From Leucobacter sp. PH1c (GTDB lineage Bacteria > Actinomycetota > Actinomycetes > Actinomycetales > Microbacteriaceae): a DNA stretch of 64,000 nt. Positions 45,115 to 63,397 of this stretch are shown here, piece by piece (the stretch's first letter is position 1; the number at the start of each line of letters is the position of its first letter). The translations under genes and the position numbers were made by a program. The notes below the pieces were generated by a model, which was not told the DNA's origin, did not search any database, and worked only from the letters and a program-made list of their open reading frames with translations. The DNA lies in contig NZ_AYMV01000027.1 in assembly GCF_000633415.1 (NCBI RefSeq), forward strand, positions 1 to 64,000, written 5' to 3'.

Positions 45115-45274
45115 AACCCCTGGTCATGAGCCGCACGAGCCGAGCCGCGACTGGGCGGCTGTGGGTTTGCTGAGCCGCCGCAGGACGCCCGCTGGCTACG
45201 CTGCGAGAGCAATCATCAGATGAAGTTTTCCGACGCGCGAAGAAGACTTCGCCCACGAGAGAAAGCTCACCCCT

Positions 45275-45919
45275 GTGACCACTGTTGTTCGGAACACCGC
45301 CGCGGAAGCCCTCGGCACCCTCCTCTTCGTCTTCGCCATCATCACGGCGATCGCGAACGCTGGCGACCTCGCCCCGTTCGCCATCGGCCTCGCGCTCATG
45401 GTGCTCGTCTACGCGTTCGGGCACATCTCGGGCGGCCACTTCAACCCCGCCGTCTCACTGGGGGCACTCGTGCGCGGCGCCCTGAGCGCGCGCGACTTCG
45501 CTTGCTACGTGGTGGGCCAGGCCGCGGGCGCGGCCCTCGCGGTGCTGCTCGCCGGCTTCGTCGTGGAGCGCCCGACGGCCTCGGTGGAGATCGAGCTCGC
45601 TCCCGCCTTCGTCGCCGAGCTCGTGGTCACGTTCCTGCTCGTCACCGTCGTCCTCAACACCGCGACTTCCCGCGACCACCCCGGAAACTCGTTCTACGGC
45701 CTCGCGATCGGCGGCACGGTCCTCGTCGGCGCGCTCGCGGTCGGCCCGGTGAGCGGCGGCGGATTCAACCCGGCCGTGGCGCTCGGCCTCGCCGTCAACG
45801 GCACATTCGCATGGGGCAGCATGTGGCTCTACGCGCTCGCCCCGCTCCTCGGCGGACTGCTCGCGGGCCTCGTGTTCCGCGCGCTGAACCCGCAGGACCG
45901 CATCGCGACGGGGGACTAG
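45275..45919 (+). CDS. aquaporin (MIP family)
   Basis: 214 residues with six membrane helices and two half-helices. The pore motifs are HFNPAV (first NPA) and GFNPAV (second NPA), as in MIP channels. The AqpZ/GlpF substrate cannot be judged without the selectivity-filter alignment. GTG start at 45275. The Fur-family gene begins two bases after its stop. Confidence 0.9.
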   Translation: MTTVVRNTAAEALGTLLFVFAIITAIANAGDLAPFAIGLALMVLVYAFGHISGGHFNPAVSLGALVRGALSARDFACYVVGQAAGAALAVLLAGFVVERPTASVEIELAPAFVAELVVTFLLVTVVLNTATSRDHPGNSFYGLAIGGTVLVGALAVGPVSGGGFNPAVALGLAVNGTFAWGSMWLYALAPLLGGLLAGLVFRALNPQDRIATGD

Positions 45920-45921
45920 CC

Positions 45922-46353
45922 CTGACCGCGCCGGACCGGGAGTCGAACAGCGCGCTGCTGCGCGCGCACGGCCTGCGGGCAACCGCGGGCCGTGTGGCCG
46001 CGCTCGGCTACCTCGCGACGCACCCGCACCGCTCGGCCACCGAGATCCACCGCGGCGTCGCGCCCGAACTCCCCACGCTCACCCTGCAGTCGGTGCACAA
46101 CATCGTGCAGGACCTCGCGGAGCGCGGGATCCTGCGCCGCATCCACCCGCCCGCTTCGAACGCGGCGCTCTACGAGGTGGCCGATGAGCACGCGCACCCG
46201 CACGCGCAGTGCGTGCGCTGCGGCCGCCTCGTCGACCTGCCGGACGCGCCGGCACCGGCCGCCGGCACGACTCCGATGCAGTCGGCCCCCGGGATGACGA
46301 TCATCGGCGTCGTCGTGACCTACCTCGGGGTCTGCGCGGAGTGCGCGAGCTAG
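45922..46353 (+). CDS. Fur family metalloregulator (unusual start)
   Basis: 143 residues. The winged helix includes LRATAGRVAALGYLATHPHRS, then LTLQSVHNIVQDLAERGILR. The dimerisation part has structural-zinc pairs Cys97/Cys100 and Cys138/Cys141 and the metal-site region DEHAHPHAQCVRC. Family members sense Fe, Zn, Mn or peroxide; which is unclear. No in-frame ATG, GTG or TTG precedes the DNA-binding domain. The best start is CTG at 45922 (LTAPDRES), with GGGGGA 6 nt upstream. It converges on AraC with a 4-nt overlap. Confidence 0.8.
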   Translation: MTAPDRESNSALLRAHGLRATAGRVAALGYLATHPHRSATEIHRGVAPELPTLTLQSVHNIVQDLAERGILRRIHPPASNAALYEVADEHAHPHAQCVRCGRLVDLPDAPAPAAGTTPMQSAPGMTIIGVVVTYLGVCAECAS

Positions 46354-47174
46354 GCGCAGACCGCGGCGTCCTCCCGGGATCCCCTCAGGGCGTGCGCGCG
46401 GTACTCGGACGGCGTGCAGCCGAGCATTCGTCGAAACGCGAGCGAGTAGCCGTTGTGCGTCATGCCCACCCGCGCGGCGACCGCGGCCACTACGCCCCCG
46501 CGCTCCAGCGCTTCGAGCGAGGCCTCCACGCGGAACCGTGAGCGCCACTCGGTGAAGCTCATGCCGGTCTCCGCCACGAACGCACGGCGGATCGAGGTCA
46601 CGCTGCAGTGCAACCGCGCGGCCCACTCGTCGAGCGTGTCGCAGTGCGAGGGATCCTCCTGCAGCGCGGCGAGGACGGGCGCCGCGAATGGGCCACTGGG
46701 CCGGGGGACGGCGGGCCGCTCCGCCTGCCCGCAGAGCGCCTCGGCAATTGACCGGGCGAGCGCGACGCTCCGCACGGCGTCCCCCTCCCGCGCGAAACCG
46801 AGGAGCGCCCGTCGCTGCTCGGGGGCGACGCGCACCGCCCGCGCCTCGGCGAGGGGCGCGCCGTCGACGAGCTCGCCGGGCTCCAGGCACACGACGACGG
46901 GCATGAACTCCGGGTCGAACCGAGCGGCGTGGTCGAGCCCCGCGGGGATCCACACCGCAGTCTCGGTGTCGACCCGGAGCGAGCGCTGCGGGGTGGTGAC
47001 GACGCACGCACCGGTCACCGCGTACAGAATCTGCGCTTCCTCGTGCCGGTGCGGCGGGTGCCCCCACTCGGCGATCTCCATCGGATCGCTCTCATTCACC
47101 GCCGGAACACGTGCTGCGGCGGGCGAGGTGACTGGTCGCTGGGTGGGATGCATGGGCCTCTGAGTTGGAAACAT
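46350..47174 (-). CDS. AraC family regulator beside siderophore locus
   Basis: 274 residues. An N-terminal cupin-like sensor domain (HPPHRHEEAQILYAVTG) precedes two helix-turn-helices: SVTSIRRAFVAETGMSFTEW and GMTHNGYSLAFRRMLGCTP. Divergent from the FecCD operon, it likely controls siderophore uptake, as do other AraC regulators next to such loci, perhaps with ferri-siderophore as ligand. The start could be 47174 or the ATG at 47153 (AGAGG upstream), both before the cupin. Confidence 0.9.
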   Translation of the reverse strand: MFPTQRPMHPTQRPVTSPAAARVPAVNESDPMEIAEWGHPPHRHEEAQILYAVTGACVVTTPQRSLRVDTETAVWIPAGLDHAARFDPEFMPVVVCLEPGELVDGAPLAEARAVRVAPEQRRALLGFAREGDAVRSVALARSIAEALCGQAERPAVPRPSGPFAAPVLAALQEDPSHCDTLDEWAARLHCSVTSIRRAFVAETGMSFTEWRSRFRVEASLEALERGGVVAAVAARVGMTHNGYSLAFRRMLGCTPSEYRAHALRGSREDAAVCA

Positions 47175-47179
47175 CTGAT

Positions 47180-47198
47180 GTTGGTGAGTCTAATCTAA
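47180..47198 (+). promoter_or_regulatory. DtxR/IdeR-like iron box upstream of siderophore operon
   Basis: The 19-mer GTTGGTGAGTCTAATCTAA matches 14 of 19 positions of the actinobacterial iron-box consensus TTAGGTTAGGCTAACCTAA. TAATCT within it could serve as the -10 hexamer, so a bound repressor would block transcription when iron is plentiful. It is in the gap between the divergent araC-type and fecCD-type genes. Confidence 0.65.
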
Positions 47199-47242
47199 GA
47201 AGCACGTTGTACGCCGCTGAAGTTCCGAGAAGGGGACCGCAC

Positions 47243-48370
47243 ATGCCTTCGTCCCCCGAGGCCCCCAGCACCGTGCCCGCGCCGCACGCGCAGGCCGCGC
47301 CCGCCGAACGCGCCGAACGCGCCGATATCAACGCAGCCGCCCTCGACGGGGCGCGCGCCGTGCGCCGCACCGCACGCCGCCGCGCCGTCGGACTCGCCCT
47401 GCTGGCTGTGGCGCTCGGGGCCTGCGCGGCCGGGAGCCTCGCTCTCGGCGCGCGCGAGATCCCGCTCGGCACGGTGCTCGAGGCGATCGCCGGACGCCTG
47501 CCGAGCGACGACTACGACGGACTGGTCGTCCTCACCGAGCGCGTGCCCCGGCTGCTCCTCGGAGTCATGGTGGGTGCCTGCCTCGGCGCCGCCGGAACCG
47601 TGATGCAGGCGGTCACGCGGAACCCCCTCGCCGACCCGGGAATCCTGGGGGTCGAGGCCGGCGCGGCGTCCGCGGTCGTCGTCGGCATCGTCGTCGGGGG
47701 CGTGCACGCCCCCTCCGGGTACTTCTGGTTCGCGCTGGCCGGCGCGGGAGTGGCGGCCCTCGCGGTCGCCTTCGTCAGCAGACTCACCACCTCGGCATCC
47801 CCGGAGATCTCGCTCGTGATCGCGGGTTCGGCCGTCGCGGCACTCCTCATGAGCGTGGTCACCCTCATCACCATCCGCGACGAGGCGGTCTTCGCAAAGC
47901 TGCGGTCCTGGTCGGTGGGCTCGCTGCTCGGCAGGGGCGAGGTCATCGACGAGCTCTGGCCGTTCGCGGTGCTCGCCCTCGCCCTCGCCTGCACGCTCGG
48001 CCGCTCGCTCGACGCGCTCGCGCTCGGCGACGAGCTCGCCGCGGGCCTGGGTGTTCGGGTCGGCCCCGCACGCATCGGCGCGGTGGGGGTCGGCGTGCTG
48101 CTCGCCGCGGTCGCAACCGCCGCGATCGGTCCGGTCGCGTTCGTCGGCCTCGTGGCGGCGCACGTCGCCCGGCTCATCGTCGGGCCCGAGCATCGCTGGC
48201 TGCTGCCGTACTCGATGCTCACGGGTGCGCTGATGCTGCTCGCGGCGGATGTGGCTGCGCGCCTGGTTCCCGGGCGGGGTGAGCTCGAGGTGGGCATCAT
48301 GACCGCGGTCGTCGGCACCCCGTTCTTCGTGGCGCTCGCGCGCGGACGGAAGCGGGTGAGCGGACTGTGA
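47243..48370 (+). CDS. FecCD-family siderophore ABC permease, first subunit
   Basis: 375 residues, ~50-residue hydrophilic N-terminal tail, then about nine to ten membrane helices. Hallmarks include RVPRLLLGVMVGACLGAAG, then NPLADPGILGVEAGA and ALGDELAAGLG. It pairs with the next gene to form the transmembrane channel of a BtuCD-type importer. I chose ATG at 47243 after GAGAAGGGGACC. First gene of the operon behind the iron box. Confidence 0.92.
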   Translation: MPSSPEAPSTVPAPHAQAAPAERAERADINAAALDGARAVRRTARRRAVGLALLAVALGACAAGSLALGAREIPLGTVLEAIAGRLPSDDYDGLVVLTERVPRLLLGVMVGACLGAAGTVMQAVTRNPLADPGILGVEAGAASAVVVGIVVGGVHAPSGYFWFALAGAGVAALAVAFVSRLTTSASPEISLVIAGSAVAALLMSVVTLITIRDEAVFAKLRSWSVGSLLGRGEVIDELWPFAVLALALACTLGRSLDALALGDELAAGLGVRVGPARIGAVGVGVLLAAVATAAIGPVAFVGLVAAHVARLIVGPEHRWLLPYSMLTGALMLLAADVAARLVPGRGELEVGIMTAVVGTPFFVALARGRKRVSGL

Positions 48371-49419
48371 CGGATCTCCAGAGCTCCGCGAGGCTGCGGG
48401 AGGTCGCCTCCGCGCTGCTCCGGCGCGAGCGGAGCGATCGGCGCACGCGCGTCCTCGTCGCGTCGGCGCTCGTCATCCTGTGCGGCGTTCTCGCGACCTG
48501 GCAGCTCTTCCTCACCGGCGACGCCGAGGTCTCCGCACGTGAGGTGCTGCCCGCCGCGCTCGGTTCGGGCGAGCGCTTGGCGACCTACGTGGTGCAGGAC
48601 ACGCTGTTCCCCCGGGCGCTCACCGCCGCGCTCGGCGGCGCCCTCTTCGGCCTCTCCGGCGCCATCTCGCAGCGCCTCTTCGGCAACCCCCTGGCCACCC
48701 CCGACGTGATCGGCATCTCGTCCGGGGCGGGAGCCGGAGCCATGATCGTCATCGCCGGCCTCGGCGCACGCGGTCTGGGCGTGCAGGCGGGGGCGATGCT
48801 CGGCGCGCTCCTCGTCGCGCTCCTCGTCTACGCGCTGAGCTGGCGGGGCGGAGTGCACGGCTATCGGCTCATCCTGGTCGGAATCGGCGTCGGCGCGTGC
48901 GCGAGTGCGCTCATCACCTTCATCGTCACCCGACTCGATGAGGTCACGACGCAGCGCGCCATGCGCTGGATGGTGGGATCGCTGAACGGCTCCGACTGGA
49001 ACGGTGTGCTCGTCCTCACCGTCGCACTCGCCCTCGGTGTCGTGCTCACCGCCGCCATCCGGCGTCCACTCGGGGATCTCGCCCTCGGTGACGAGCTCGC
49101 GTCCGGCCTCGGGGTTCGCGTCTCGCGGCTCCGGTTCGGAGCGCTCGTGCTCGCCACGCTGCTCGCGGCGAGCGTGACGTCGGTGACCGGGCCGATCGCG
49201 TTCATCGCGCTCGTCGCCGGGCCGATCGCCACGCGCGTGCTGCGTCTCCCCGATGCGCCCCTGACCGCGGCGCTCGTCGGAGCGGGGCTGCTCTCGGCCA
49301 CCGATATCGCCGCGCAGACGCTGCCGCTCATCAGCCCGGTTCCCACCGGAGCGATCACCGCGGTCTTCGGCGCCCCCATCTTGATCGCCCTTCTCGTCAG
49401 GAAGCAGAATCGCGCATGA
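48367..49419 (+). CDS. FecCD-family siderophore ABC permease, second subunit
   Basis: 350 residues with nine to ten membrane helices and the permease signatures RALTAALGGALFGLSGAISQ, NPLATPDVIGISSGA and ALGDELASGLG. It forms a heterodimer with the preceding permease. The start GTG at 48367 overlaps the previous stop by 4 nt. Confidence 0.92.
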   Translation: MTDLQSSARLREVASALLRRERSDRRTRVLVASALVILCGVLATWQLFLTGDAEVSAREVLPAALGSGERLATYVVQDTLFPRALTAALGGALFGLSGAISQRLFGNPLATPDVIGISSGAGAGAMIVIAGLGARGLGVQAGAMLGALLVALLVYALSWRGGVHGYRLILVGIGVGACASALITFIVTRLDEVTTQRAMRWMVGSLNGSDWNGVLVLTVALALGVVLTAAIRRPLGDLALGDELASGLGVRVSRLRFGALVLATLLAASVTSVTGPIAFIALVAGPIATRVLRLPDAPLTAALVGAGLLSATDIAAQTLPLISPVPTGAITAVFGAPILIALLVRKQNRA

Positions 49420-50264
49420 CGCAGCATTCCCCCGCCCTCTCCGCGCGCGGCCTGAGCGTCGGATACGATCGCACGCCGATCGTATCCGAGCTCGATCTGG
49501 AGATCGAGGCCGGGCGGATCACCGCGCTCATCGGCCCCAACGGCAGCGGCAAGTCCACGCTCCTGAAGGGCCTCGCCCGCGTGCTGCCCCCGCTCGCGGG
49601 ACACGTCGAGCTCGCGGGCCGCGACATTCGGCGGATCAGCTCGCGCGATGTCGCGCGGGAACTCGGTTTCCTCCCCCAATCGCCGCTCGCGCCGGAAGGG
49701 ATCACCGTTGCGGAGCTCGTTCGCCGGGGGCGCCACCCGCACGATCGGCTCTTCTCGCGCAACACGATGGGCGAAGCGGCCGCGGTCGCGGAGGCGATGC
49801 TCCTGACCGGTGTCAGCGAGTACGCGCACCGCCCGGTCACCGCGCTCTCGGGCGGACAGCGCCAACGAGCCTGGATCGCCATGGTCCTCGCTCAGCGCAC
49901 ACCGACCCTGCTCCTCGACGAGCCCACCACGTTCCTCGACATCGCCCACCAGATCGATGTGCTCGAGCTCCTGCTCGAACTCAACCGGGAACACGGGAAG
50001 ACGATCGTGATCGTCCTCCACGACCTTGAGCAGGCCGCCGCCTACGCCGACACGATCGTGGCGCTGACCGCCGGCGCGATCGCCGCAAGCGGGCCGCCGC
50101 AGGAGGTCGTGACCGAGCGCTTCCTGGCCGACGTGTTCGGCTTGACCGCACGCGTGATCCCGGACCCCGACACCGGTTCCCCGCTCGTGCTTCCCCGCGG
50201 GAGGCGATCGCGATCGGCCGCCGAGGATTCCCCATCCGCCCACCCCACACAGGAGATCTCATGA
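49416..50264 (+). CDS. siderophore ABC importer ATPase (FecE-like)
   Basis: 282 residues with all ABC ATPase motifs: Walker A GPNGSGKST, Q-loop LPQSPLAP, signature LSGGQRQR, Walker B LLLDEPTTFLD and the H-loop VLHDLEQ. It powers the FecCD-type channel. ATG at 49416 overlaps the previous stop by 4 nt. Complete, unlike the degenerate NBDs of the exporter-fold pair downstream. Confidence 0.95.
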   Translation: MTQHSPALSARGLSVGYDRTPIVSELDLEIEAGRITALIGPNGSGKSTLLKGLARVLPPLAGHVELAGRDIRRISSRDVARELGFLPQSPLAPEGITVAELVRRGRHPHDRLFSRNTMGEAAAVAEAMLLTGVSEYAHRPVTALSGGQRQRAWIAMVLAQRTPTLLLDEPTTFLDIAHQIDVLELLLELNREHGKTIVIVLHDLEQAAAYADTIVALTAGAIAASGPPQEVVTERFLADVFGLTARVIPDPDTGSPLVLPRGRRSRSAAEDSPSAHPTQEIS

Positions 50265-51250
50265 AGCTCACACGCACGCTCTCAACCGCGGTCATCGCCG
50301 CACTATCCGTCACCGCGCTCGCGGGCTGCTCAAGCGCCGCCTCCGGCTCCGGAACGGGAGACGCCGGAAGCGGGTACCCGCTGACGCTCGAGAACCCGTG
50401 GGGGCAGGCCGTGATCGACGAGCAGCCCCAGCGGGTCGCCGTGGTCGACTCGGTCGACCTCGACATCGCTCTCGCACTGGGGGTCGAGCCCGTCATCGGC
50501 AGCGTGTACGGCGACAATCCTCACGATCCGTGGACGGAGGAGGCGCTCGCCGCGGAGAAGATCTCGTTGCACACCTTCGACGCGACGGACGGCACGGACT
50601 TCGTCGCCATCGCCGCGGCGGATCCCGATGTGATCCTGGCGACCAGCGGGTGGACGCTCGAGGACGACTACGCGAAGCTCGACGCGATCGCCCCTGTGGT
50701 GACCTGGGGCCCCGACCAGGTGCTGACCGACCTCACCTGGGCCGATCGCACGCTTCTGGCCGGCAAGGCCCTGGGGCTCGAGGATCGGGCCGAGCAGGTC
50801 GTCGCGGACGTCGAGTCCGACTTCGCCGCCGCGCGCGACGCGCATCCCGAGTGGGCCGGGAAGACGCTGACGTACGCCGTGATGCACCCGGCGCAGGTCT
50901 CCTACGTCAGCTACCTCGGCAGCGACGTGTCCTTCTTCACCGACCTCGGCTTCACGCTGCCCGACGAGGCCTCGCGGTTCTCCGACGAGGACAATGCGGT
51001 GAGCATCGAGAACCTCGACCTGCTCGACGCCGATGTGCTCTTCGTGGGGTACCCGTTCGGGAACGAGGGGATCCTCACCCAGGACGCGCTCGAGAGCAAC
51101 GCCCTGTTCCAGCAGCTTCCCGCCGTGCAGGAAGGCCGCTACGGCATTCTCAGCGACGAGGTCTCTTCGCCCCTCGCGTACCCGACGCCGCTCAGCCAGC
51201 CGTGGGTGCTCGAGCGCATCGTCCCGCAGTTCGAGCAGACGATCCGCTAG
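50261..51250 (+). CDS. siderophore-binding lipoprotein (FecB/FhuD type)
   Basis: 329 residues. The signal peptide ends with the lipobox LAGC, anchoring the protein outside the membrane. The mature domain is a type III substrate-binding protein: PQRVAVVDSVDLDIALALGV, then SGWTLEDDYAKLDAIAPVV. It captures a ferri-siderophore for the FecCD/E importer. The ATG overlaps the ATPase stop by 4 nt, giving strict coupling. Confidence 0.94.
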   Translation: MKLTRTLSTAVIAALSVTALAGCSSAASGSGTGDAGSGYPLTLENPWGQAVIDEQPQRVAVVDSVDLDIALALGVEPVIGSVYGDNPHDPWTEEALAAEKISLHTFDATDGTDFVAIAAADPDVILATSGWTLEDDYAKLDAIAPVVTWGPDQVLTDLTWADRTLLAGKALGLEDRAEQVVADVESDFAAARDAHPEWAGKTLTYAVMHPAQVSYVSYLGSDVSFFTDLGFTLPDEASRFSDEDNAVSIENLDLLDADVLFVGYPFGNEGILTQDALESNALFQQLPAVQEGRYGILSDEVSSPLAYPTPLSQPWVLERIVPQFEQTIR

Positions 51251-51271: not shown

Positions 51272-53068
51272 ATGGCCCAGAGCATCCGCCCCCAACTCAC
51301 CTACCCGATCAGTCTTCGGAAGCTGACGGTGCATCGCGCCTACGACGTCAGCCCGGGCCTGCGCCGCGTCGAGCTCACCGGGTCCGAGCTCAGCGGCGCC
51401 GTGCGCGACGGCTTCGTGCTGCCGCCCTTTGTCTCCGACGGGTTCGACGATGAGATCAAGCTGTTCTTCCCCGACCCCGAGTCCGGCGAGCTCAGCCTCC
51501 CCGTACAGCGCGATCGATTCATCGATTGGCCCCGCGATCCGCGTCCCGAGGCGCGCACGTACACCGTGCGCGGCTTCGACGCCGAACGCGAGCTGCTCCT
51601 CCTCGACTTCGCACGGCACGCGCGCGGCGTCGCGACCGATTGGGCAGAGCAGTGCCAGCCGGGCGCGGAGCTCCACATCGCGGGGCCCAAGATGGCCTGG
51701 CTGCACCCGGAGGGCGCCGACTGGCTCTTCATCGGCGGCGACGATACAGCGCTGCCGGCACTCGCGCGCTGGTTGGAGACGATGCCGCAGGAGACCCGCG
51801 GCGTCGCACTCCTGGAGGTTCCCGACGCGAGTCACGAGTTCGAGATCCCGCACCCGGAGGGCGTCGAACTGCGCTGGCTGCACCGCGGTGCCACTCCCGC
51901 GGCTCGATCGACGCGGCTCATCGATGCGGTGCTCGGCGAGCCCTGGCGGGACGGGGAGCCGTTCTGCTGGTTCGCGGGCGAGACGGGCGTGCTCCGCCCG
52001 ATCCGCTCGTATCTCCGCAAGGACCGCGAACTCCCCCGGGAGCGCGTCGAGGTCACCGGGTACTGGCGGGCGCCCGTCGGCGACGAGCTCGACATCGACC
52101 CGGACGAGGAGGAGACCGCGGATCTGCACGAGCTGGGCGAGCTCGTGCCGCCCTACGCGCTTCGCGCCGCGGTGACGCTCGGAGTGGTCCCCGCAATTCG
52201 CGCGGGTGCGCGCTCGACGGCGCAAATCGCCGACGCCATCGGGGCCCACCCGGGCGCGCTCGCTCGGCTCCTGCGGTACCTCGCGACCCTCGAACTCCTG
52301 ACGGAGGAGCACGGTGAGTGGCGGATCACCCGCGCCGGCGGCGCGCTCGACGACGAGGACGAGAACGGCGGGCTCGATCTCGCGGACCCGCTCGCGCGCG
52401 AACAGCTCGCGATCGCCTCGCTCCTCGAGGTGCTCCGCACGGGAGCACCGGTCCAGGCATCGCGGGCCGACCGTCGGGAGCGTGATCCGCAGCTCAACGC
52501 GGCGATCACGCTCGACGCAGCCGCGGACCTCAGCTACGTCGCGAGCTCCTTCGGGTCGGCGGAAGTGCCGTTTGCGCCCGGCGAACACCTCGTCGTCGCC
52601 GGCGAGGGCGCGCTCTCGGTGCTCGCCGGCCCGCTCACGGCCGACCCGGAACTGCGGGTCACGCTCCTCGAGCGCCCCTCCCGCGTCGCACCAGCGCTCG
52701 GCGTCCTCCCCGCTCCGCTCCGCGATCGGATCGTCGTCGTCCACGGGACCGGGCTCGACGCCTGGCCGCGCACCGACGGGACCGTGCTCCTGCTCAACGC
52801 GCTCCGGGGGCTTCCCGACGCCGACGCGGCGCACCTGCTCCGCGGCGCCGCAGCGAGCGGTGCACGCCTCCTCGTATTGGAGGACCTCCTCGGAGTCGAC
52901 GAGATCGATGAGCACGATGCGGAGGGCGATCTCCTGGAGCTCTGCCTCACCGGGGTCGGCCGCCGAACCCTCGACGAGGTGCGCGGTGTCGCGCGGCTCG
53001 CGGGTCTCGACGTGAGCGCTCGGGCGATCGGGTGGGGGGACCTCCTCCTCACGCTCACGAGCAGCTGA
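51272..53068 (+). CDS. siderophore-interacting protein fused to a methyltransferase-like module
   Basis: 598 residues. Residues ~15-268 are a siderophore-interacting (FAD-binding, ferric reductase) domain with the flavin motif EARTYTVR (94-100), FAGETG and the C-terminal VTGYWRAPVGD. Residues ~290-350 resemble the dimerisation/winged-helix part of class I O-methyltransferases. The rest looks like a methyltransferase fold whose glycine-rich SAM loop is degenerate (VVAGEGALS). SIP proteins reduce ferri-siderophore and release Fe2+. A 21-nt gap follows the binding-protein gene. Confidence 0.85.
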   Translation: MAQSIRPQLTYPISLRKLTVHRAYDVSPGLRRVELTGSELSGAVRDGFVLPPFVSDGFDDEIKLFFPDPESGELSLPVQRDRFIDWPRDPRPEARTYTVRGFDAERELLLLDFARHARGVATDWAEQCQPGAELHIAGPKMAWLHPEGADWLFIGGDDTALPALARWLETMPQETRGVALLEVPDASHEFEIPHPEGVELRWLHRGATPAARSTRLIDAVLGEPWRDGEPFCWFAGETGVLRPIRSYLRKDRELPRERVEVTGYWRAPVGDELDIDPDEEETADLHELGELVPPYALRAAVTLGVVPAIRAGARSTAQIADAIGAHPGALARLLRYLATLELLTEEHGEWRITRAGGALDDEDENGGLDLADPLAREQLAIASLLEVLRTGAPVQASRADRRERDPQLNAAITLDAAADLSYVASSFGSAEVPFAPGEHLVVAGEGALSVLAGPLTADPELRVTLLERPSRVAPALGVLPAPLRDRIVVVHGTGLDAWPRTDGTVLLLNALRGLPDADAAHLLRGAAASGARLLVLEDLLGVDEIDEHDAEGDLLELCLTGVGRRTLDEVRGVARLAGLDVSARAIGWGDLLLTLTSS

Positions 53069-53069
53069 G

Positions 53070-54761
53070 GTGACGCGAGGGGGACCGCGGCGTGAGGGCG
53101 GCGGCGTGAGGGCGGACGAACCGCTGCGGACCGAGGGGGCACGGACCGCTTCCGGGCTCGTGCGGCGGGTGATGCGCGCCGCACCGGGGCCCACGTTCGG
53201 CGCGGCGCTCTGCTTCGTCACGCACCTCGTCGCGGAGTTCACCGTCCCCGTACTGGTGGGGCTCGCGATCGACGACGCGGTGCGCCTCGGTGATCCGGCA
53301 CGGCTCGCCTGGTGGTGCGCCGCGCTCGTCGCGGATTTCCTCATCCTCGCGTTCGCGTACCGGGCCGGTACCCGCCTCGGTCTCCGGGCGTTCGAGATCG
53401 CTCAGCACCGGACTCGGCTCGCGGTGAACGCGCGCGTACTCTCGCCGGACGGCTTCGCGAGCGCCCGGCCGCCCGGGGAGCTGATCTCCATCGCGGGATC
53501 CGACGTGTCCCGCCTCTCCCGCTCGGTGCTGATCGCGCTGCACCCGGTCGCGGAGCTCGCGGCGCTCGGGTACGCAACGGTGGCGCTCGGCGTGATCTCC
53601 CCGGCGCTCGGCGCCGCCGTCCTGGGCGGCGCCCTGCTGCTCGTCGTCATCCTCGAGGTCCTGGGGCGCCCGCTCAAGAGCACCGCCGAGCGCGAGCAGG
53701 AACGCGCCGCCGAGGTCACCGCGGTCGCCGCCGACTTCTTCGCGGGAGCGGGGGCGCTGCGCAGCCTCGGCGGGATTCCGCGCGCCCTCGAACGGCACCG
53801 GGCCGCGAATGCCGTCGCGGTCGCAGCGGGGATCCGCGCCCGTCGCACCGAGGCTGGGTTCGTCGCCGTCTCCCGGATCCTCGGGGCGGTGCTCCTCGTC
53901 GGCATCGCGGGTGCTGCGGCGTTCCTCGCACTCGACGGAGAGCTCACGGTGGGCCAGCTCGTGATCGTCGTCGGTCTCCTCCAACTCGTGCTCGGGCCGC
54001 TCGAGGCGCTCGCGGTCAATCTCGGGACCGTGTGGTTGACGGCAGTCGCGTCGGCTCGCCGCGTGCTCGCGCTTCTCACCGAGGGCCCCGCGGCCGGGAG
54101 CTGCGCCGCGCGGCCACCCGCTCCGGGCGACACCGCGCCCCCGGCGCGCAGGGCCCCCACCCCGGCGGACGAGCTCCTCGGGTTCAGCGAACTCGCGGGA
54201 ACGCATCTTCCCCCGATCAGCCTCCGCCTCCGCACCGGCGATGCCATCGGAATCGTGGCGGACGCCCACGCCGTCTCGGAACTGTGCGAGATCCTGGAAC
54301 AGCGCCGCGAGCCCACGGCAGGACAGGTGACGCTCGCGGGAACTCCGCTCCACGCGCATGACCACCGGAGCCGGGCAGGCGCGCTCCTCGTCGCACCGCG
54401 CGGAGTGGAGGGTGCCCACACGCAGCCGCCCTCGGGCGCCGCGGCCGACGCCGCGCGGCTCGTCCTCCCCGCAGTGTCCGGCGGAGAGCGGCAGCGACTC
54501 GCACTCGCGACGGCGCTCGATGCCCGAACGGCAGTGCTCGTGCTCCGAGAGCCGACTTCGGCGCTCGACCCGGCAACCGAGCAGCTCGTCGCTCGAACGC
54601 TCCGGGCGGCAACCGCGGGACGAGGGCTCCTGGTGCTCACCTCCTCCCCCGCGATCCTGAGCCAGCTCGACGCCGTGCACTTCCTGCGCAACGGCACCGC
54701 GCGCCGCGCCACGCACCAGGAGCTGCTGGCCGACCCCGAGTACCGGCGGATGATCTCATGA
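53070..54761 (+). CDS. exporter-fold ABC half-transporter with degenerate ATP site (IrtA/B-like)
   Basis: 563 residues: six membrane helices, then an NBD. Signature VSGGERQR (~469-476) is intact, but Walker A is replaced by GIVADAHAVS (~394-403). The Q-loop Gln is missing, Walker B reads VLREPTSALD (Asp lost, Glu kept), and the H-loop His is replaced by Ser. It therefore cannot bind ATP normally at its own Walker A, but can complete the site on its partner. The GTG at 53070 starts one base after the SIP stop; GTG at 53106 is an alternative. SIP plus this pair resembles mycobacterial IrtAB, an importer of exporter fold. Confidence 0.85.
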   Translation: MTRGGPRREGGGVRADEPLRTEGARTASGLVRRVMRAAPGPTFGAALCFVTHLVAEFTVPVLVGLAIDDAVRLGDPARLAWWCAALVADFLILAFAYRAGTRLGLRAFEIAQHRTRLAVNARVLSPDGFASARPPGELISIAGSDVSRLSRSVLIALHPVAELAALGYATVALGVISPALGAAVLGGALLLVVILEVLGRPLKSTAEREQERAAEVTAVAADFFAGAGALRSLGGIPRALERHRAANAVAVAAGIRARRTEAGFVAVSRILGAVLLVGIAGAAAFLALDGELTVGQLVIVVGLLQLVLGPLEALAVNLGTVWLTAVASARRVLALLTEGPAAGSCAARPPAPGDTAPPARRAPTPADELLGFSELAGTHLPPISLRLRTGDAIGIVADAHAVSELCEILEQRREPTAGQVTLAGTPLHAHDHRSRAGALLVAPRGVEGAHTQPPSGAAADAARLVLPAVSGGERQRLALATALDARTAVLVLREPTSALDPATEQLVARTLRAATAGRGLLVLTSSPAILSQLDAVHFLRNGTARRATHQELLADPEYRRMIS

Positions 54762-56569
54762 CCCGCGCCGTCCCGCCCGCGCACCCCGCGTCCCCCGGTG
54801 CCGCGGCGCCCCACTCGCTCCCGCTGGCCTCGGGTGCGCGCTGCGTGCAGTGGCTCCGCACCGTATCCGCCGGGTTGCGCGGAAGGATCGTGTGCGCGCT
54901 CCTCCTGCTCGCCGTGGCCGCCGTGGCCGAGCTCGCCCTGCCCCTCGGGCTCGGGCGCCTGGTCGACGCCGTGGACTCCGGATCCCGTGCTGACGCGGTC
55001 GCCGCGGCCGTGCTCGCGCTCTCGGGTCTGCTCGCCGCTGCGGCAGGCGGGGCGGCCGCGGCGCTGCTGCTCAGCTCGGGCCTTGAGCGCGTGCTCGGCC
55101 GTGTGCGGGAACGCGTCGCCACCGCGGCGCTGCGGTTGCCCGCGCAGACCGCGGAGGCGCTCCCCAGCGGAGAGCTGGTCTCGCGCGCGAGCGACGATGT
55201 CGAGGCGCTCCGGGAGGCGACCTCCGAACCCGTGCCCGCGCTGGCGGCCTCGGGCGCCGCCGTCGCCACGATGTTCGCGGGACTCCTCGCGCTCCACCCC
55301 GGGTTCTTCGGCGCCGCGCTTCTCGCGGTGCCGGTGCAGCTCTTCGCACTGCGCCGCTACCTGCGACGTGCGCCGGCGCTCTACCGGCAGGAGCGCGCGG
55401 CCGTCTCGCGACGGTCGTCGCGGCTCTTCAGCTCCGTGCAGGCGCGCGAGGCGATTCGCGCGTACGGCACCGAGACCGCGGCGCAGGACCGCTGCGCCCG
55501 GAGCTCCTGGGCTGCCGTGCGCGTGGCAATGCTCATCCGCGCGGTGCAGAGCACCTTCTTCTTCCGGCTCAACCTCGCCGAGCTCATCGGCACGGGCGCG
55601 CTCATGGTCGCGGCGTTCCTCCTCGTCGACTCCGGACAGGTGACGCTGGGCGAAGCCACCGCCGCACTCCTCCTCTTCATCTCGCTGTTCGGGCCGATCG
55701 GCACCCTGCTGCTGGTGATCGATGATGTGCAGGCCGCCTCAGCCGCGCTCAGCCGAGTCGTCGGTCTGGTTGACACGGCCGCTCAGACGGGCGCGCGTGC
55801 AGAGCGGACGCCCGCCGGCCCGGCGATCGCCGAGCGACCGCTCCCCCACGAGCTGTCCTCCCAGCACTCACTGCCGGCGATCGAACTGCGCGAGGCGTGC
55901 CTCTCCCTCGGGCGCAATCAGCACGTCCTCGCGAGCATCACGCTGAGCATCCCGGCGGGCCAGCGCGTGGCCCTCGTCGGCGCCTCCGGAGCGGGGAAGA
56001 CGTCGCTCGCCCGAGTCATCGCGGGGCAGCTTCCCCTGGCCGGGGGCTCCGTGCGCGTGCACGGAGCGGATCCGCACTCGCTCTCGGATGAGGCCCGCGC
56101 AGCACTCGTCGCGGTCGTCGACCAGGATCCGTACGTCTTCTCCCTCACGCTTGCGGAAAATCTTCGGATCGCTGCCCCCGCGGCCACGCCGGACGCACTC
56201 GCGGCGGCGTGCCGCTTCACGGGCATCTCCGCGGATCTCGACGCTGAGTGCCCCGGCGACGACGGCTCACTCCCCCACCGGCTCGCGCTCGCACGCGCGT
56301 TCCTCCGGCCGAGTCCGGTGATCGTGCTCGATGAGATGACCGCGGCCGCGGACGGAAGCGCTGCACGCGACCTCGACCAGGCGGCCCGGCGCGCGTTCGC
56401 CGGCCGAACGCAGATCATCATCGCGCACCGGCTCTCCCACGCGGAGGCGTGCGACCGGATCATCGTGCTCGACCGAGGACGTGTCGTGGAGGACGGCGCG
56501 CCCCACACGCTCCGGCGGGCCGGCGGGGCCTACGCCGAGCTCTGGGAGGCGTGGGAAGAGCACCGCTGA
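54758..56569 (+). CDS. exporter-fold ABC half-transporter with degenerate signature
   Basis: 603 residues: six membrane helices, then an NBD with Walker A GASGAGKT (408-415), Q-loop DQDPYVF (Gln456), Walker B VLDE (523-526) and H-loop His557 in IIIAHRLSH. The LSGGQ signature is replaced by GSLPH (503-507). With the previous gene it should form one functional composite ATP site (its Walker A with the partner's signature) and one dead site. ATG at 54758 overlaps the partner's stop by 4 nt. The 3' end overlaps the convergent DUF1801 gene by 40 nt. Confidence 0.9.
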   Translation: MTRAVPPAHPASPGAAAPHSLPLASGARCVQWLRTVSAGLRGRIVCALLLLAVAAVAELALPLGLGRLVDAVDSGSRADAVAAAVLALSGLLAAAAGGAAAALLLSSGLERVLGRVRERVATAALRLPAQTAEALPSGELVSRASDDVEALREATSEPVPALAASGAAVATMFAGLLALHPGFFGAALLAVPVQLFALRRYLRRAPALYRQERAAVSRRSSRLFSSVQAREAIRAYGTETAAQDRCARSSWAAVRVAMLIRAVQSTFFFRLNLAELIGTGALMVAAFLLVDSGQVTLGEATAALLLFISLFGPIGTLLLVIDDVQAASAALSRVVGLVDTAAQTGARAERTPAGPAIAERPLPHELSSQHSLPAIELREACLSLGRNQHVLASITLSIPAGQRVALVGASGAGKTSLARVIAGQLPLAGGSVRVHGADPHSLSDEARAALVAVVDQDPYVFSLTLAENLRIAAPAATPDALAAACRFTGISADLDAECPGDDGSLPHRLALARAFLRPSPVIVLDEMTAAADGSAARDLDQAARRAFAGRTQIIIAHRLSHAEACDRIIVLDRGRVVEDGAPHTLRRAGGAYAELWEAWEEHR

Positions 56570-58417: not shown

Positions 58418-61400
58418 TTACTCGCTGATCCGCCTCCGGCGGGCGAGGCTCCAGACGATGGTGCCGCCGAGCAGCAGGGCCAGACCGAGGGCGCCGAGCT
58501 GCGCGGACTGCGCGTCGGCGACGCCGGTCATGGCGAGCTCGGAGCGGACGGGCGGCATCGCTGCGGGCAGCGGGGCCGGGGCCGCACCGGGGACCACGCC
58601 GCCGGGCGTGGTGGGCGGCTCGGGAGTGACCGGCGGCTGCGGCGGCTGCGCCGAGCAGTTCGGCGTGGCCGGCGGGTAGACGGTCGCTTCGTTCGCGGTC
58701 GGGTTGATCCGGATCTCGACGATCGCCTCAGCGCGGAGGTCGTAGTGCGGAGCGCTCGGGTCGAGCTTCCAGACTCCGTCGCTGCCGAGCGTCCATCCGG
58801 GCCAGCCGGTCGGGTTGCCCTGCGCGTCGACGCTCGCGCCCGGCCAGAGCATCTGGCCGGTCACGGGATCGCCGCTCTGCCAGCCGGCGGGGTAGGCGAT
58901 CGGGTCGACCTGGGATGCGCCGTCCGCGAGGATCGCGGCGGTGTCACCCGCGGGGATTGAGGGATCACGGTTCGCGAACGCCTCCGGCGTCCACCAGATC
59001 ATCACGATCGGCAGCGTCGCGGTGTCCGCAGTGCCGCTCGGGGTGATGTTGTAGGTGAACCAGGGGGTGTCGTTGACGCAGACCGCGCTGCCCGCGACCG
59101 AGACGGCCCGCACCTCGGTGGTGACGGATCCGCAGTCGTTGCCGGGATCACTGTCTCCGCCGCCGGGCTGTTCCTCACCGGTGAAGACCGCGAGCGCCGG
59201 GCTCACGTCGCCCGCGGCCCGCTCGGGCGAGGGCTCAGGCTCGGCGGGGCCGGAGGCGGCGACGCAGGCCTGGTTGGTCACCTCGCCGCTCGCGGGAGCC
59301 GCCGTCACCGTCGCGTCGAAGGAGATCGTTGCGTCTCCCTCGAATGCGCCCGCGTAGCTCGCGGTCACGGTGCTGCCCGAGATCGCCACGGTCCAGCCCT
59401 CGCTCGCGCTCTCGGAGCCCGGGACGGGGGTGAGACCGGCGGGCACCTCGTCGGTGACGACCGGATCGAGCGCCGCATCGGGGCCGGCGTTCGAGACGGC
59501 CAGCGTGTAGCGGATCGTGTCGCCCAGTTCAGCGACGCCTCCGCCCTCGCCGTCGCCGACGCTCGCGGTCTTCACGAGCGACAGATCGTACGAGCCGGCC
59601 GGGCAGGGGGTGACCGTGATCTCACGGGAGACCGACGCCTCGCCCACGCTCACGCGGACGGTGTAGGTGCCGGCGCCCGCGATGTCGAGCGCGACGTCGA
59701 GCGTCGAGCCGTCCCCGGCCTGCACGGTGCGGCTGAGGTACGGGGTCGCGGCGCCCATGCTGACGGTGACCTGGTAGTCGACGCCCTCGACGAGGTCGCC
59801 GAGCTGCGCGCTGAGCGTCTCCGGGAGGCCGGCGCCGAAGGCGGTGCACTGCTCCACCTGGAGGGTGAGCGACGGCGCCTCGGGTGCGGGGCACTCAGTC
59901 ACCTCGATGGTCTGCTCGGCGCTGTCCCCGGCGTGCTCACCGGTTCCCTGCACCGTGACGAGCAACGCGCCCTCCTCGGTGGGGGTGACGGTGAGGTTCC
60001 GCGTCGCGGCATCCGCCACGAATTCGATCGAGCTCGAGCCCGCCACGGAGACGCCGTCGAGTGCGACGGTGTACGGCTCGCCGACGACGAGGTCGGAGAG
60101 CGCGACGGTCACGGGAGCGAAGCCGCCGGCCACGGGGCAGTCGCCCGTCGACAGCTGGATCGCGGGATCCGGATCAACCTCCGGCGGCACGTTCTCGCAG
60201 TTGTTGTCGAAGATGGCCTGGCCGGCCTCATCCCAGTTCTGGCCGGAGAAGGAGACCAGGGTCCCCGCGATCACGGCCTCGAACGGCGGGATGATGTCTC
60301 GCCCGTCGTGGTGCGATGCGCCCCGGTGCCCGTTGTAGGCGGCCTCGGCGGCGACGGTGATCTTCACCCACGGATTCGAGTCAGACTCGGTCGCGTGGCA
60401 GAGCGTCACCTTGACGTCCTCCGGCGGGGCGCAGCGGTCCACGGTCACCGAGCGGGTCACCGTGCCGGTCGCGGCGCGCTGGCCCGTGCCCCAGACGTCA
60501 ACGCTCACGTCCGCGCTCGTGATCGACCCGAGCGAGACGCTCTCGGTCGCTCCGCTCGCGGTGAACGTCATCACGCTGCCGCCGTTCACGCGGTAGCTGT
60601 AGGGCTGGCCGGAGACGAGGTTCGCGAAGAGCGCGGTCACCGGCGGGAAGTCCTGCTCGGCAACGCACTCACCGGGGGTGAGCGTCACGGTCGGCGCGGG
60701 ATCCACCTCGGGCGGCGGGGTGTTGCACCCGGCGTTGTAGACGGCCTGTCCGGCGGCGTCCCAGTTCTGGCCCGGGAACTGCAGGGTCTGGCCGCGCACC
60801 GTGTACTCGAACGGCGGGATGATGTCTCGCCCGTCCTGGTGGTGCGCGCCCGCGTGCCCGTTCGCCGAGCCATCGGGTGCGATCCGGATCGTGACCCACG
60901 GGTTCTTCGTCGAGCTCGTGGCGTGGCAGAGGGTCACCTTCTCCTTCTGCGGTCCGCTGCCGAGGGTCTGCACGCTCGGCGTCTCCGCCGCGGCCGCGGC
61001 TGGCGCGGGGGCTTCGGCGGGGGCCGGCTCTGCGGCTGGCTCAGGTGCCGGCTCTGCGACGGGCTCGGCCGCGGGGGCGGCGGGCTCCGGGGCCGGTTCG
61101 GCGACGGGCGCCGGTTCCGGGGCCGGTTCCGGGGCCGCGACGGGCGCGGGGGCCGGTTCGGGGGCCGTCACCGCGGGTGCCTCGGGAGCCGGTTCTGCGG
61201 CAGGAGCGGGCGTGGGGTCGGCGGGAGCTGCGGGAGCGGCTGCCGGGTCCGCTGCGGTGTCCCCGGCCGCCGCGACGGCCGTGGTCTCGGTGCTCGGAGC
61301 GAGCTCCTCGGCGAAGGCGGGGGCCGTGAAGGCCGGGAGCAGCAGGGCGGCAGCGGCGAGTGCGGCGGCTCCGCCGCGGAGCATGCCGCCTCCCCCACGG

Positions 61401-61480
61401 AACACGCTCCCCTCGAAGGGCCGGCGCCGCACCGATCGGTGGGCGTGCGGTTGGGACTGTGGGGCTCGCTTCGTTCTCAT
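58418..61480 (-). CDS. LAxTG-anchored surface protein with two LCHAT domains and a DUF11 domain
   Basis: 1020 residues. Long signal peptide (basic to ~35, hydrophobic 36-53, cleavage probably after AFA at 57). Residues ~60-170 are a Pro/Ala/Glu-rich linker of APEPAP repeats. Two related domains begin at 182 and 358 (KVTLCHAT, NPWV, NGH, HHxDGRDIIPPFE, GQNWD), each with Cys/His that could bind metal. Ig-like stretches follow, then a DUF11-type repeat at ~630-740 and a Pro-rich stalk. The C-terminus has LAMTG (982-986), a hydrophobic helix and RRRR, a sorting signal of the LAxTG kind used by class E sortases. ATG chosen at 61480. Confidence 0.85.
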   Translation of the reverse strand: MRTKRAPQSQPHAHRSVRRRPFEGSVFRGGGGMLRGGAAALAAAALLLPAFTAPAFAEELAPSTETTAVAAAGDTAADPAAAPAAPADPTPAPAAEPAPEAPAVTAPEPAPAPVAAPEPAPEPAPVAEPAPEPAAPAAEPVAEPAPEPAAEPAPAEAPAPAAAAAETPSVQTLGSGPQKEKVTLCHATSSTKNPWVTIRIAPDGSANGHAGAHHQDGRDIIPPFEYTVRGQTLQFPGQNWDAAGQAVYNAGCNTPPPEVDPAPTVTLTPGECVAEQDFPPVTALFANLVSGQPYSYRVNGGSVMTFTASGATESVSLGSITSADVSVDVWGTGQRAATGTVTRSVTVDRCAPPEDVKVTLCHATESDSNPWVKITVAAEAAYNGHRGASHHDGRDIIPPFEAVIAGTLVSFSGQNWDEAGQAIFDNNCENVPPEVDPDPAIQLSTGDCPVAGGFAPVTVALSDLVVGEPYTVALDGVSVAGSSSIEFVADAATRNLTVTPTEEGALLVTVQGTGEHAGDSAEQTIEVTECPAPEAPSLTLQVEQCTAFGAGLPETLSAQLGDLVEGVDYQVTVSMGAATPYLSRTVQAGDGSTLDVALDIAGAGTYTVRVSVGEASVSREITVTPCPAGSYDLSLVKTASVGDGEGGGVAELGDTIRYTLAVSNAGPDAALDPVVTDEVPAGLTPVPGSESASEGWTVAISGSTVTASYAGAFEGDATISFDATVTAAPASGEVTNQACVAASGPAEPEPSPERAAGDVSPALAVFTGEEQPGGGDSDPGNDCGSVTTEVRAVSVAGSAVCVNDTPWFTYNITPSGTADTATLPIVMIWWTPEAFANRDPSIPAGDTAAILADGASQVDPIAYPAGWQSGDPVTGQMLWPGASVDAQGNPTGWPGWTLGSDGVWKLDPSAPHYDLRAEAIVEIRINPTANEATVYPPATPNCSAQPPQPPVTPEPPTTPGGVVPGAAPAPLPAAMPPVRSELAMTGVADAQSAQLGALGLALLLGGTIVWSLARRRRISE

Positions 61481-61662
61481 GGCCGTGCTGCCTTCTTCCG
61501 AGGAATCCGGAGACAGCACTCCGTTGTCCTGTCCCCGATCTCACGGCCGGCAGTCGCCGGGAGCAGATGCACGGCGCCCGCGGTCGCGTGATGCCGCTCA
61601 CGTTAGGCGCGCGGCCGCGAAAGCGGATCCGGGAGAATTACGCAGATTCGGGGCAGGAACGG

Positions 61663-61723: not shown

Positions 61724-63289
61724 TCACCAGTGCCGGTGCTCCTCGGTGCCCGAGTAGTCGGGCCAGGGAAGGTCGATCGGCGGCTCGAAATCGACGGGCA
61801 GGAGCGCCGGCATGGGCTCCGCGGCCACGCGATCCGCGAACTCCTGCTTCGCCGCGGCGAGCGTCTCCGGCTTCGTGAGGAGGTCGAGGAACGTGCCCGA
61901 GACGGTCTTGCCCGCCGTGAGAATCGTCGGCGCGATCGTCTCCGGGATCCCGCCGAGCGCGTTCATGACCCACGCGGGGTAGGGCCCCTCTCCCGGCACC
62001 GGCTGGAGGGCGGGGCGCGACACGTAGAAGCGCACGAGGGGCGCGTAGTGGCTCATCTCGACGTAGTCGTCGCTCGTCCAGTTCCGCTGCCAGGCCGGCA
62101 TGTGCTCGCGCAGCAGGCGCTCAGCCTCCTGCGGGGTGATGAGCTGCTCGGTCTCCGCGAGGAAGGGCTTCGCGGTGGCCTCGCGGCCGAGCGAGCGCTG
62201 GATCTCCTGCGCGACCGCGATCGCCTCGGCGCCGTACTCGGGCGCCCCCACGTCCGCGAGGTTCGCGTAGAGGGTCTCGCTCATCACGTGGTTCGTGCGT
62301 CCCGGGCGGCTGCGCGCGATCCAGCGATCTTCCGCGGCGCAGTGCGCCATGGAGGCCGCGGCCTGCGCGTTGCGGTCGAGGATCGTGAGGATGTGCTCGG
62401 CCATCTCGATGTCCGGCGTGCGCCACGAGAACTGGATGCGGGCCACGCGCTGCGGCAGGTTGTCCGCGGTCGCCTGGCCGTCGCTCAGGATCGCGTCGGA
62501 GAAGCTCCACCCGCCCGTAGCCGGGAGCATCGAGTCGAGCATGGTGCGCGAGGCCGTGTACATCTGCATGAGTGCGACGTTCGCCCCGGGCGCGCGGGCC
62601 GCGGAGTGCGAGGCGGGGATCGGCGAGTTGGGATCGGCGCTCGAGAGCTGCCAGGTCTCCGGCTCGTCGCAGATGAAGGAGTAGACCTTGCTGTAGTACG
62701 CCCCGCACTGCGTGTCCCAGCGGGCGGTGTTGCAGAGCGGCAGCATGTAGAAGGGGTGGAAGGACACGATCGCGTCGGCGTCGTCGTAGTAGCCGCGCAG
62801 CCCGTGCACCACCTTCGAGCCGTGCATCTTCTCGGCGGGCTCCCCCGTGTACTTCAGCGTGCCGCCGATTCCATGCACCGTCATCGCGTGCTTCGTGGCG
62901 AGTACGCCGGCAAGCGTGGAGATGCCGAGCACCGAGTGGGGATCGGTGTGGCCGGGCGCGAAGCGGCTGAGGCCGGCGCGCGGGGTCTCGGAGGTCGCGG
63001 CCGCCTGGCTGTTGCCGGGTACGGCGTCGTACTCGGCGTAGGTGAGGAGGGTCGGGCCGTCGCCATTCGCCCAGACCGCACTGAATGCGGTCGGCATGCC
63101 GGCGGAGCCGTCCTCCACCTCGAAGCCCTCCTCGCGGAGGCGGGCGACGTACCACTCCTGCGAGCGGTACTCGCGCCACGCGGGCTCCGCGAGCTCCCAG
63201 ATGTGGGTGTGCCACTCAGTGAGCTCGGTGAGGTGGTCGTCGATCCACGCCTGCGCGGTGCGCTTGGCCTCGGCGGTGAGTGCGGTCAC
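61724..63289 (-). CDS. M20-family amidohydrolase (AbgB-like)
   Basis: 521 residues of the M20/peptidase D fold. Early motifs are ELTEWHTHIWELAEPAWREY and LLTYAEYDAVPGNSQ. The ligand region CAAEDRWIARSRPGRTNH and the C-terminal WTSDDYVEMSHYAPLVRFYV match p-aminobenzoyl-glutamate hydrolase subunit B-like enzymes; the true substrate is open (amidated amino acids are common). I chose GTG at 63289 after AAGGACACACC; the ATG at 63367 lies in the intergenic region. Confidence 0.87.
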   Translation of the reverse strand: MTALTAEAKRTAQAWIDDHLTELTEWHTHIWELAEPAWREYRSQEWYVARLREEGFEVEDGSAGMPTAFSAVWANGDGPTLLTYAEYDAVPGNSQAAATSETPRAGLSRFAPGHTDPHSVLGISTLAGVLATKHAMTVHGIGGTLKYTGEPAEKMHGSKVVHGLRGYYDDADAIVSFHPFYMLPLCNTARWDTQCGAYYSKVYSFICDEPETWQLSSADPNSPIPASHSAARAPGANVALMQMYTASRTMLDSMLPATGGWSFSDAILSDGQATADNLPQRVARIQFSWRTPDIEMAEHILTILDRNAQAAASMAHCAAEDRWIARSRPGRTNHVMSETLYANLADVGAPEYGAEAIAVAQEIQRSLGREATAKPFLAETEQLITPQEAERLLREHMPAWQRNWTSDDYVEMSHYAPLVRFYVSRPALQPVPGEGPYPAWVMNALGGIPETIAPTILTAGKTVSGTFLDLLTKPETLAAAKQEFADRVAAEPMPALLPVDFEPPIDLPWPDYSGTEEHRHW

Positions 63290-63365
63290 GGTGTGTCCTT
63301 TCGGGTGAAGCGGGTGTGTCGGATGAAGGCTGGGGCGGGCGCGGCGCGGGCCGCGCGGGTGCACC

Positions 63366-63397
63366 ACGGGCCGCCTCCCGGGTGGAAGACGGCCCGC
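63366..63397 (-). terminator. possible terminator after the dehydrogenase gene
   Basis: 7-bp arms (CGGGCCG / CGGCCCG) with a 16-nt loop, 13 nt past the stop codon. Weak and without a T-tract. Confidence 0.3.

Follow-up and report, generated by a model that had tools for sequence, protein, structure and literature searches.

How an ATP-binding cassette (ABC) transporter may work when both of its nucleotide-binding domains (NBDs) have lost motifs is the question raised by two adjacent genes in a 64,000-nucleotide stretch of Leucobacter sp. PH1c (contig NZ_AYMV01000027.1, positions 1 to 64,000; hereafter the window). The genes, called here ABC1 (53070..54761, + strand) and ABC2 (54758..56569, + strand), encode type IV (exporter-fold) half-transporters. 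According to PMC7756269, two chains build each ABC site: one contributes Walker A, Walker B and its A-, Q- and H-loops, the other its signature and X-loop, and the D-loops lie in between. Judged by their motifs, each of the two chains retains its own contribution to a predicted live site, whereas the second site has lost its motifs on the ABC1 face and on the ABC2 face alike. The ABC1-ABC2 heterodimer alone would thus be able to form a complete ATP site, and would form exactly one; neither homodimer would have any.

Complementary losses in ABC1 and ABC2

The open reading frames (ORFs) of the two genes overlapped by ATGA (ABC1 ending at 54761, ABC2 starting at 54758) and displayed coding-like composition. 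Both chains matched PF00664 (66.8 bits in ABC1) and PF00005 and consist of a membrane domain followed by an NBD, as expected of type IV half-transporters, although the NBD of ABC1 was matched only in part, its best PF00005 stretch corresponding to profile positions 107-137. Motifs were placed by alignment of the window pair with 19 homologous pairs (L021-L039; L numbers designate loci throughout) and with a wider table of NBDs.

In ABC1, the columns of the expected Walker A read ADAHAVSE (residues 397-404; 54258..54281, +, like all motif positions given here). The Q-loop position is occupied by Arg (R444, in VAPR; 54399..54401) instead of Gln; this placement is certain to about one residue only, owing to a deletion just behind R444, and no Gln lies nearby. 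Walker B reads LVLREP, in which Arg replaces Asp and Glu is retained (54546..54551), and the H-loop position displays the Ser of a TSSP stretch (54642..54644), not His. The signature VSGGE, which would contribute to the predicted live site, is retained (54474..54488), as is the D-loop (SALD). The shifted but intact Walker A that a preliminary description of the window had named as an alternative, or a frameshifted one, was encountered in none of the three forward frames; the whole protein contains a single lysine (K203) and no GK.

ABC2 displays a Walker A (GASGAGKT, 55979..56002), an intact Q-loop (VDQD), the Walker B Asp-Glu (VLDE, 56330..56335) and the H-loop His (IAHR, 56426..56428). The columns of its expected signature read DDGSLPH (56258..56278), and the A-loop position displays Leu, not Tyr (55907..55909). 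The preliminary description had listed the losses of ABC1 (Walker A, Q-loop Gln, Walker B Asp and H-loop His, with SGGE kept) and had reported an intact Walker A, Walker B Glu and H-loop in ABC2 next to a replaced signature; the alignment bore out both accounts (columns DGSLPH for the replaced signature). It had overlooked the kept Walker B Glu of ABC1, the A-loop Leu of ABC2 and the short distance between Q-loop and SGG in ABC1. This distance was 27 residues in the window and in L022, and at least 52 (median 57) in the other 49 ABC1 chains examined. The helical subdomain of the window ABC1 (54402-54473) is correspondingly about 30 residues short of the family median, a feature common only to L022 among the 51.

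The proposal of a heterodimer with exactly one canonical site therefore stood in part. Sequence, phylogeny and conservation all spoke strongly for one complete site, but the term canonical did not fit the lineage of the window, with its A-loop Leu and its shortened helical subdomain and X-loop region.

Conservation, descent and distribution

The NBD table comprised 51 ABC1, 49 ABC2 and, as a control from the same stretches, 30 ordinary exporter chains. Relatives came from actinobacterial genomes, including those of Glycomyces paridis (L041) and Nocardiopsis flavescens (L042). The set excludes loci L001-L020 (short first pieces, whose places were fetched wider where used), L096 (a 200-base filler) and, for being weak, distant or duplicate, L043-L047 and L049-L062. 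Three exporters fused to full length (L093-L095) and five incomplete chains, one of them the ABC2 of L077 truncated by a contig end, do not appear in the table. A contig scan with a single protein yielded 17 loci; two of these, L041 and L042, were clear relatives displaying the complementary pattern. At least one such pair was found in 13 of 24 same-genus genomes (L022-L024, L026-L037). The searches of 40 relatives and of 296 genomes were thresholded, and absence from them is no proof.

The motif losses of the window were encountered throughout. All 118 distinct ABC1 chains (window included) lacked Walker A and kept SGG[QE], while all 87 ABC2 partners kept Walker A and none kept the signature. 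Within the NBD table, GxxxxGK[ST] occurred in 0/51 ABC1, 49/49 ABC2 and 30/30 ordinary exporter chains; SGG[QE] occurred in 51/51 ABC1 and 17/30 ordinary exporter chains. Two of the 49 ABC2 pieces (L071, L072) contained SGG[QE], both times outside the aligned signature columns, and no SGG was found within those columns. The pattern goes beyond chance because the same complementary motifs were found in every relative examined.

The two chains differed in which columns were conserved. In ABC1, S, G and G of the signature were each present in 51/51 chains, followed by Q (49) or E (2), and the D-loop Asp was likewise invariant (51/51). The Q-loop position never displayed Gln (H36, K5, N3, P2 and one each of R, D, Y, T and I), nor did the H-loop position ever display His (T22, S19, A4, G2, D2, R1, V1); the latter was followed by Ser in 48 chains and then Pro in 45. 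At the Walker B Asp position, D19, H15, V9, I4, Q2, R1 and P1 were counted. The Walker B Glu position displayed E39, D11 and N1; replacement of this Glu, a frequent hallmark of the degenerate chain, is thus not a feature of ABC1, and the Glu is kept in the window. Seven of the eight P-loop columns of ABC1 had entropies of 2.2-2.9, the median for its NBD being 2.07, and a conserved Ala (43/51) occupied the place of the Gly preceding the Walker A Lys. In ABC2, the Walker A glycines and Lys, the Q-loop Gln, and the Asp, Glu and His were each found in 49/49 chains. The A-loop displayed Tyr in 47 and Leu in two (window and L022), and the D-loop Asp was found in only 20/49, with Gly in 29/49.

A tree was inferred with FastTree from the membrane domain only (321 columns, 138 chains). 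The 51 ABC1 formed exactly one clade (support 1.0), as did the 49 ABC2 (0.997). Because each chain forms a single clade on the membrane domain, the stripped state of ABC1 would most simply be ancestral to a large actinobacterial family rather than gained repeatedly. ABC1 lay upstream of ABC2 in 49/49 pairs (stop order), and 49 of the 51 ABC1 of the first set had ABC2 directly downstream; of the other two, L077 was cut by the contig end. Distances between partners correlated (r = 0.893, against a maximum of 0.191 in 2000 permutations), to which the shared descent of the operon contributes. The NBD of ABC1 displayed dN/dS ratios of 0.10-0.44 (23 non-independent comparisons among relatives more than 68% identical in this domain, none with the window), and the stripped domain is therefore considered to be maintained.

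As the first set had been chosen with profiles containing the NBD, selection bias was checked with a profile of the membrane domain only (A5). Among 345 genomes of the class, 210 reached 1e-24 or better; by hand count, 171 of them had their best match at 2.5e-42 or better, and 39 fell in the range from about 1e-31 to 1e-24. Chains were read at the 30 top places and at 40 hand-picked ones (about every third listed, down to about 1e-57), which confines this sampling to listed places of at least about 1e-57 in strength. All 70 ABC1 chosen in this way lacked Walker A and kept SGG[QE]; three of them repeated earlier loci (L113, L114, L115). A partner was present in 38 of the 40 longer stretches (3.4-5.1 kb), and all 38 kept Walker A and lacked the signature; partners in L113-L142 were cut by the stretch end and were not counted. 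The pattern was kept across several classes of one phylum. A plasmid search gave one partial match, covering 29% of the query, in Tsukamurella.

Iron-siderophore surroundings

Judging from spacing and strand, the ABC1-ABC2 pair probably ends an iron-siderophore operon. Upstream of it, all on the + strand, lie genes for two FecCD-type permeases (47165..48370 and 48367..49419, PF01032), the FecE-type ATPase of the importer (49416..50264, PF00005), a siderophore-type substrate-binding protein (Peripla_BP_2; 50261..51250, PF01497) and a siderophore-interacting protein (SIP) fused to a dimerisation domain of O-methyltransferase type (51272..53068; PF08021, PF04954, PF08100). No catalytic methyltransferase domain was recognised in the SIP fusion by Pfam at 1e-3; the same fusion was found by profile in L022, L024 and L069. 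Genes for FUR-family and AraC-family regulators are located directly upstream of the operon (45220-46353, +; 46350-47174, -). Scans for promoters and terminators gave nothing above shuffled sequences.

For 26 of the 51 ABC1, the fetched stretch contained iron genes (SIP, FecCD or binding protein); all 26 belong to one clade of 33 (1.0). Such genes were found beside none of the eight loci with only ordinary exporters and beside none of the 16 lower-scoring ABC1. Genes of non-ribosomal peptide synthetases (NRPS) adjoin L075, which belongs to the iron clade, and occur near L087; the NRPS ORF next to the L075 ABC1 is 2222 aa or longer. The genome of the window (3.1 Mb) contained eight matches to PF08021 at 1e-5, two of them short, which suggests a rich uptake repertoire.

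Further downstream, the window contains a 1033-aa DUF11-domain protein (58418-61519, -) and, beside it, a 547-aa ORF (61724-63367, -) of coding-like composition without Pfam match at 1e-4.

Mechanism, competing readings and related transporters

Since only the Walker elements of ABC2 and the signature of ABC1 make up a complete set, the pair would assemble as an obligate type IV heterodimer with a single ATP sandwich. ABC2 would supply Walker A, Walker B and the Q- and H-loops of the live site, and ABC1 the signature and D-loop. This site is predicted to work and the other to stay empty: the opposite site, erased on both faces, would most likely hold no nucleotide, one ATP would be bound and hydrolysed per cycle, and the NBD of ABC1 would serve as a scaffold closing onto ABC2. 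In the branch of the window, the pair would handle a siderophore-type substrate. As a complete FecCD-type importer and a SIP are already present in the same operon, the favoured task of the pair is to export or recycle the siderophore once it has been imported by FecCD, FecE and the binding protein and relieved of its iron with the help of the SIP; import of IrtAB type is the less favoured option. Taken as a whole, the reading of an obligate heterodimer with one ATP site, one ATP per cycle and a siderophore-type substrate in the branch of the window is given a probability of roughly 0.7.

Several observations weigh against it. AlphaFold models made from three-row alignments were poor (mean pLDDT 56.9 and 48.3), and the site was not visible in them. 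A Gln was found two residues before the aligned Q-loop position in four ABC1 (L079, L080, L084, L092). No ABC2 was present within the fetched stretch for three ABC1 (L075 7604-9316, L161 1-1710, L165 3375-5081), and no iron gene in that of seven of the 33 loci of the iron clade. In the window's own family the distribution was patchy (among the listing of the membrane-domain search, 15 other genomes without a match at 1e-24, one weak only). The window's genome displayed no IucA/IucC and one NRPS module, which does not settle the direction of transport. Finally, the kept Walker B Glu, the conserved TSSP-like stretch and the conserved Ala of the P-loop region argue for some residual role of the dead site.

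This last point leads to the possibility that ATP or some other ligand is still bound, but not hydrolysed, at the stripped site and so holds the NBDs together, as proposed for other degenerate-site exporters. Glu or Asp at the Walker B Glu position in 50/51 ABC1, the Ser (48/51) and Pro (45/51) behind the lost H-loop His, the P-loop Ala (43/51) and the conserved replacement of the Q-loop Gln by His (36/51) would all suit such binding, and a degenerate site that binds nucleotide has been published for MsRv1273c/72c (PMC12038006). It is nevertheless a rather unlikely option: the phosphate-binding loop is absent rather than merely altered (no GxxxxGK[ST] in 51/51 and in 70/70 ABC1), the facing signature is gone, and seven of the eight P-loop columns are more variable (entropy 2.2-2.9) than the median column of the NBD (2.07). 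A different reading, in which an ordinarily two-site transporter has decayed locally or become a pseudogene, could draw on the extra losses of the window pair in the helical subdomain and the A-loop, which are common only to L022 among the 51 + 49 chains. Such decay was rejected as very nearly untenable, given the complementary losses in all relatives examined and dN/dS ratios of 0.10-0.44 among these relatives; the reading frames are intact, the columns of the predicted live site are invariant or nearly so, and the family-level sequences already contradict it.

The remaining two alternatives concern the partners and the task of the pair. That ABC1 is a regulatory or scaffold half pairing with several ABC2-like chains encoded elsewhere could account for the three copies without ABC2 in their fetched stretch, including that of L075 beside NRPS, but ABC2 directly downstream in 49/51 and the matching partner distances make free pairing decidedly improbable. 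A ferric-siderophore importer following the mechanics of IrtAB would agree with the SIP gene immediately upstream, the iron gene cluster and the common fold class. IrtAB likewise combines an exporter fold, a heterodimer and a siderophore context with a SIP domain, and YbtPQ is a further exporter-fold pair engaged in siderophore import. In IrtAB, however, the SIP is fused to the N-terminus of IrtA, whereas it is a separate gene in the window. The four IrtA/IrtB-type pairs examined had both NBDs intact, and their four IrtA-like (SIP-fused) and four IrtB-like chains formed a separate group of 8 in the membrane-domain tree (0.976). IrtAB of Mycobacterium tuberculosis binds two ATP and has two catalytic Glu (PMC10246721), and YbtPQ differs from the present pair in displaying nucleotide at both sites, ADP with vanadate (PMC10967856). 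Orthology with IrtAB was rejected on account of the one-site motifs and the separate membrane-domain branch. With two-site mechanics already contradicted by sequence and import already offered by FecCD, FecE and the binding protein of the operon, an importer of this type is improbable. The parallel with IrtAB drawn in the preliminary description consequently holds for the SIP neighbour and the fold class, and not for the NBDs, both of which are intact in Irt pairs, nor for descent, as these branch apart.

With TM287/288, TmrAB, BmrCD, TAP and MsRv1273c/72c, the obligate heterodimer favoured here would share one consensus and one non-consensus site, as well as the pairing of a chain with intact Walker and catalytic residues with a chain of intact signature. 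Its two different chains, encoded together with one site of each kind, are those expected of degenerate-site heterodimeric exporters. The best half-transporter match of the ABC2 profile in the PDB was TM288 (3qf4_B), and 3qf4_A, which is presumably TM287, was among the best matches of the ABC1 profile. In TM287/288, TmrAB, BmrCD and TAP, the degenerate site keeps Walker A and binds nucleotide. Here, by contrast, ABC1 lacks Walker A, Q-loop Gln and H-loop His and ABC2 lacks the signature, so that a Walker A in the degenerate site, which is usual but not strictly defining in such heterodimers, is missing. The architecture of two half-transporters, each with a transmembrane domain (TMD) followed by an NBD, is also not that of the full-length NBD-TMD-NBD-TMD chains of Pdr5 and the PDR family, and the Walker A of Pdr5, apart from its Lys, is recognisable. 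As described in PMC7756269, all motifs of one site are altered in Pdr5 (Walker A Lys->Cys, Walker B Glu->Asn, H-loop His->Tyr and a signature reading LNVEQ); the same source gives Walker A Lys->Arg for ABCG5/G8 and characterises fungal PDR transporters as eukaryotic full-length proteins of inverse domain order. In degree of loss, Pdr5 comes nearest to ABC1-ABC2. The degenerate site of MsRv1273c/72c keeps Walker A and binds ATP (PMC12038006).

Degenerate-site ABC exporters are well known. Searches of an open-access library brought up no clade-wide complete loss of Walker A, and the titles and abstract openings listed there described no heterodimer with one chain wholly devoid of Walker A. The transporters treated in the cited comparison papers, as far as these describe them, still hold nucleotide at the degenerate site or keep Walker A; in the present family, evolution did away with the site in both chains, and this loss persists in several classes of a single phylum. 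It is slightly more likely than not that an ancient and large actinobacterial lineage gave up its second nucleotide site altogether and works with one ATP sandwich, selection having preserved the stripped NBD as a scaffold. If true, a second bound ATP, whether catalytic or as glue, would not be needed for the transport cycle, and the family, whose partner is conserved and whose iron context lends itself to assays, would offer a natural one-site machine for testing the need of the second ATP.

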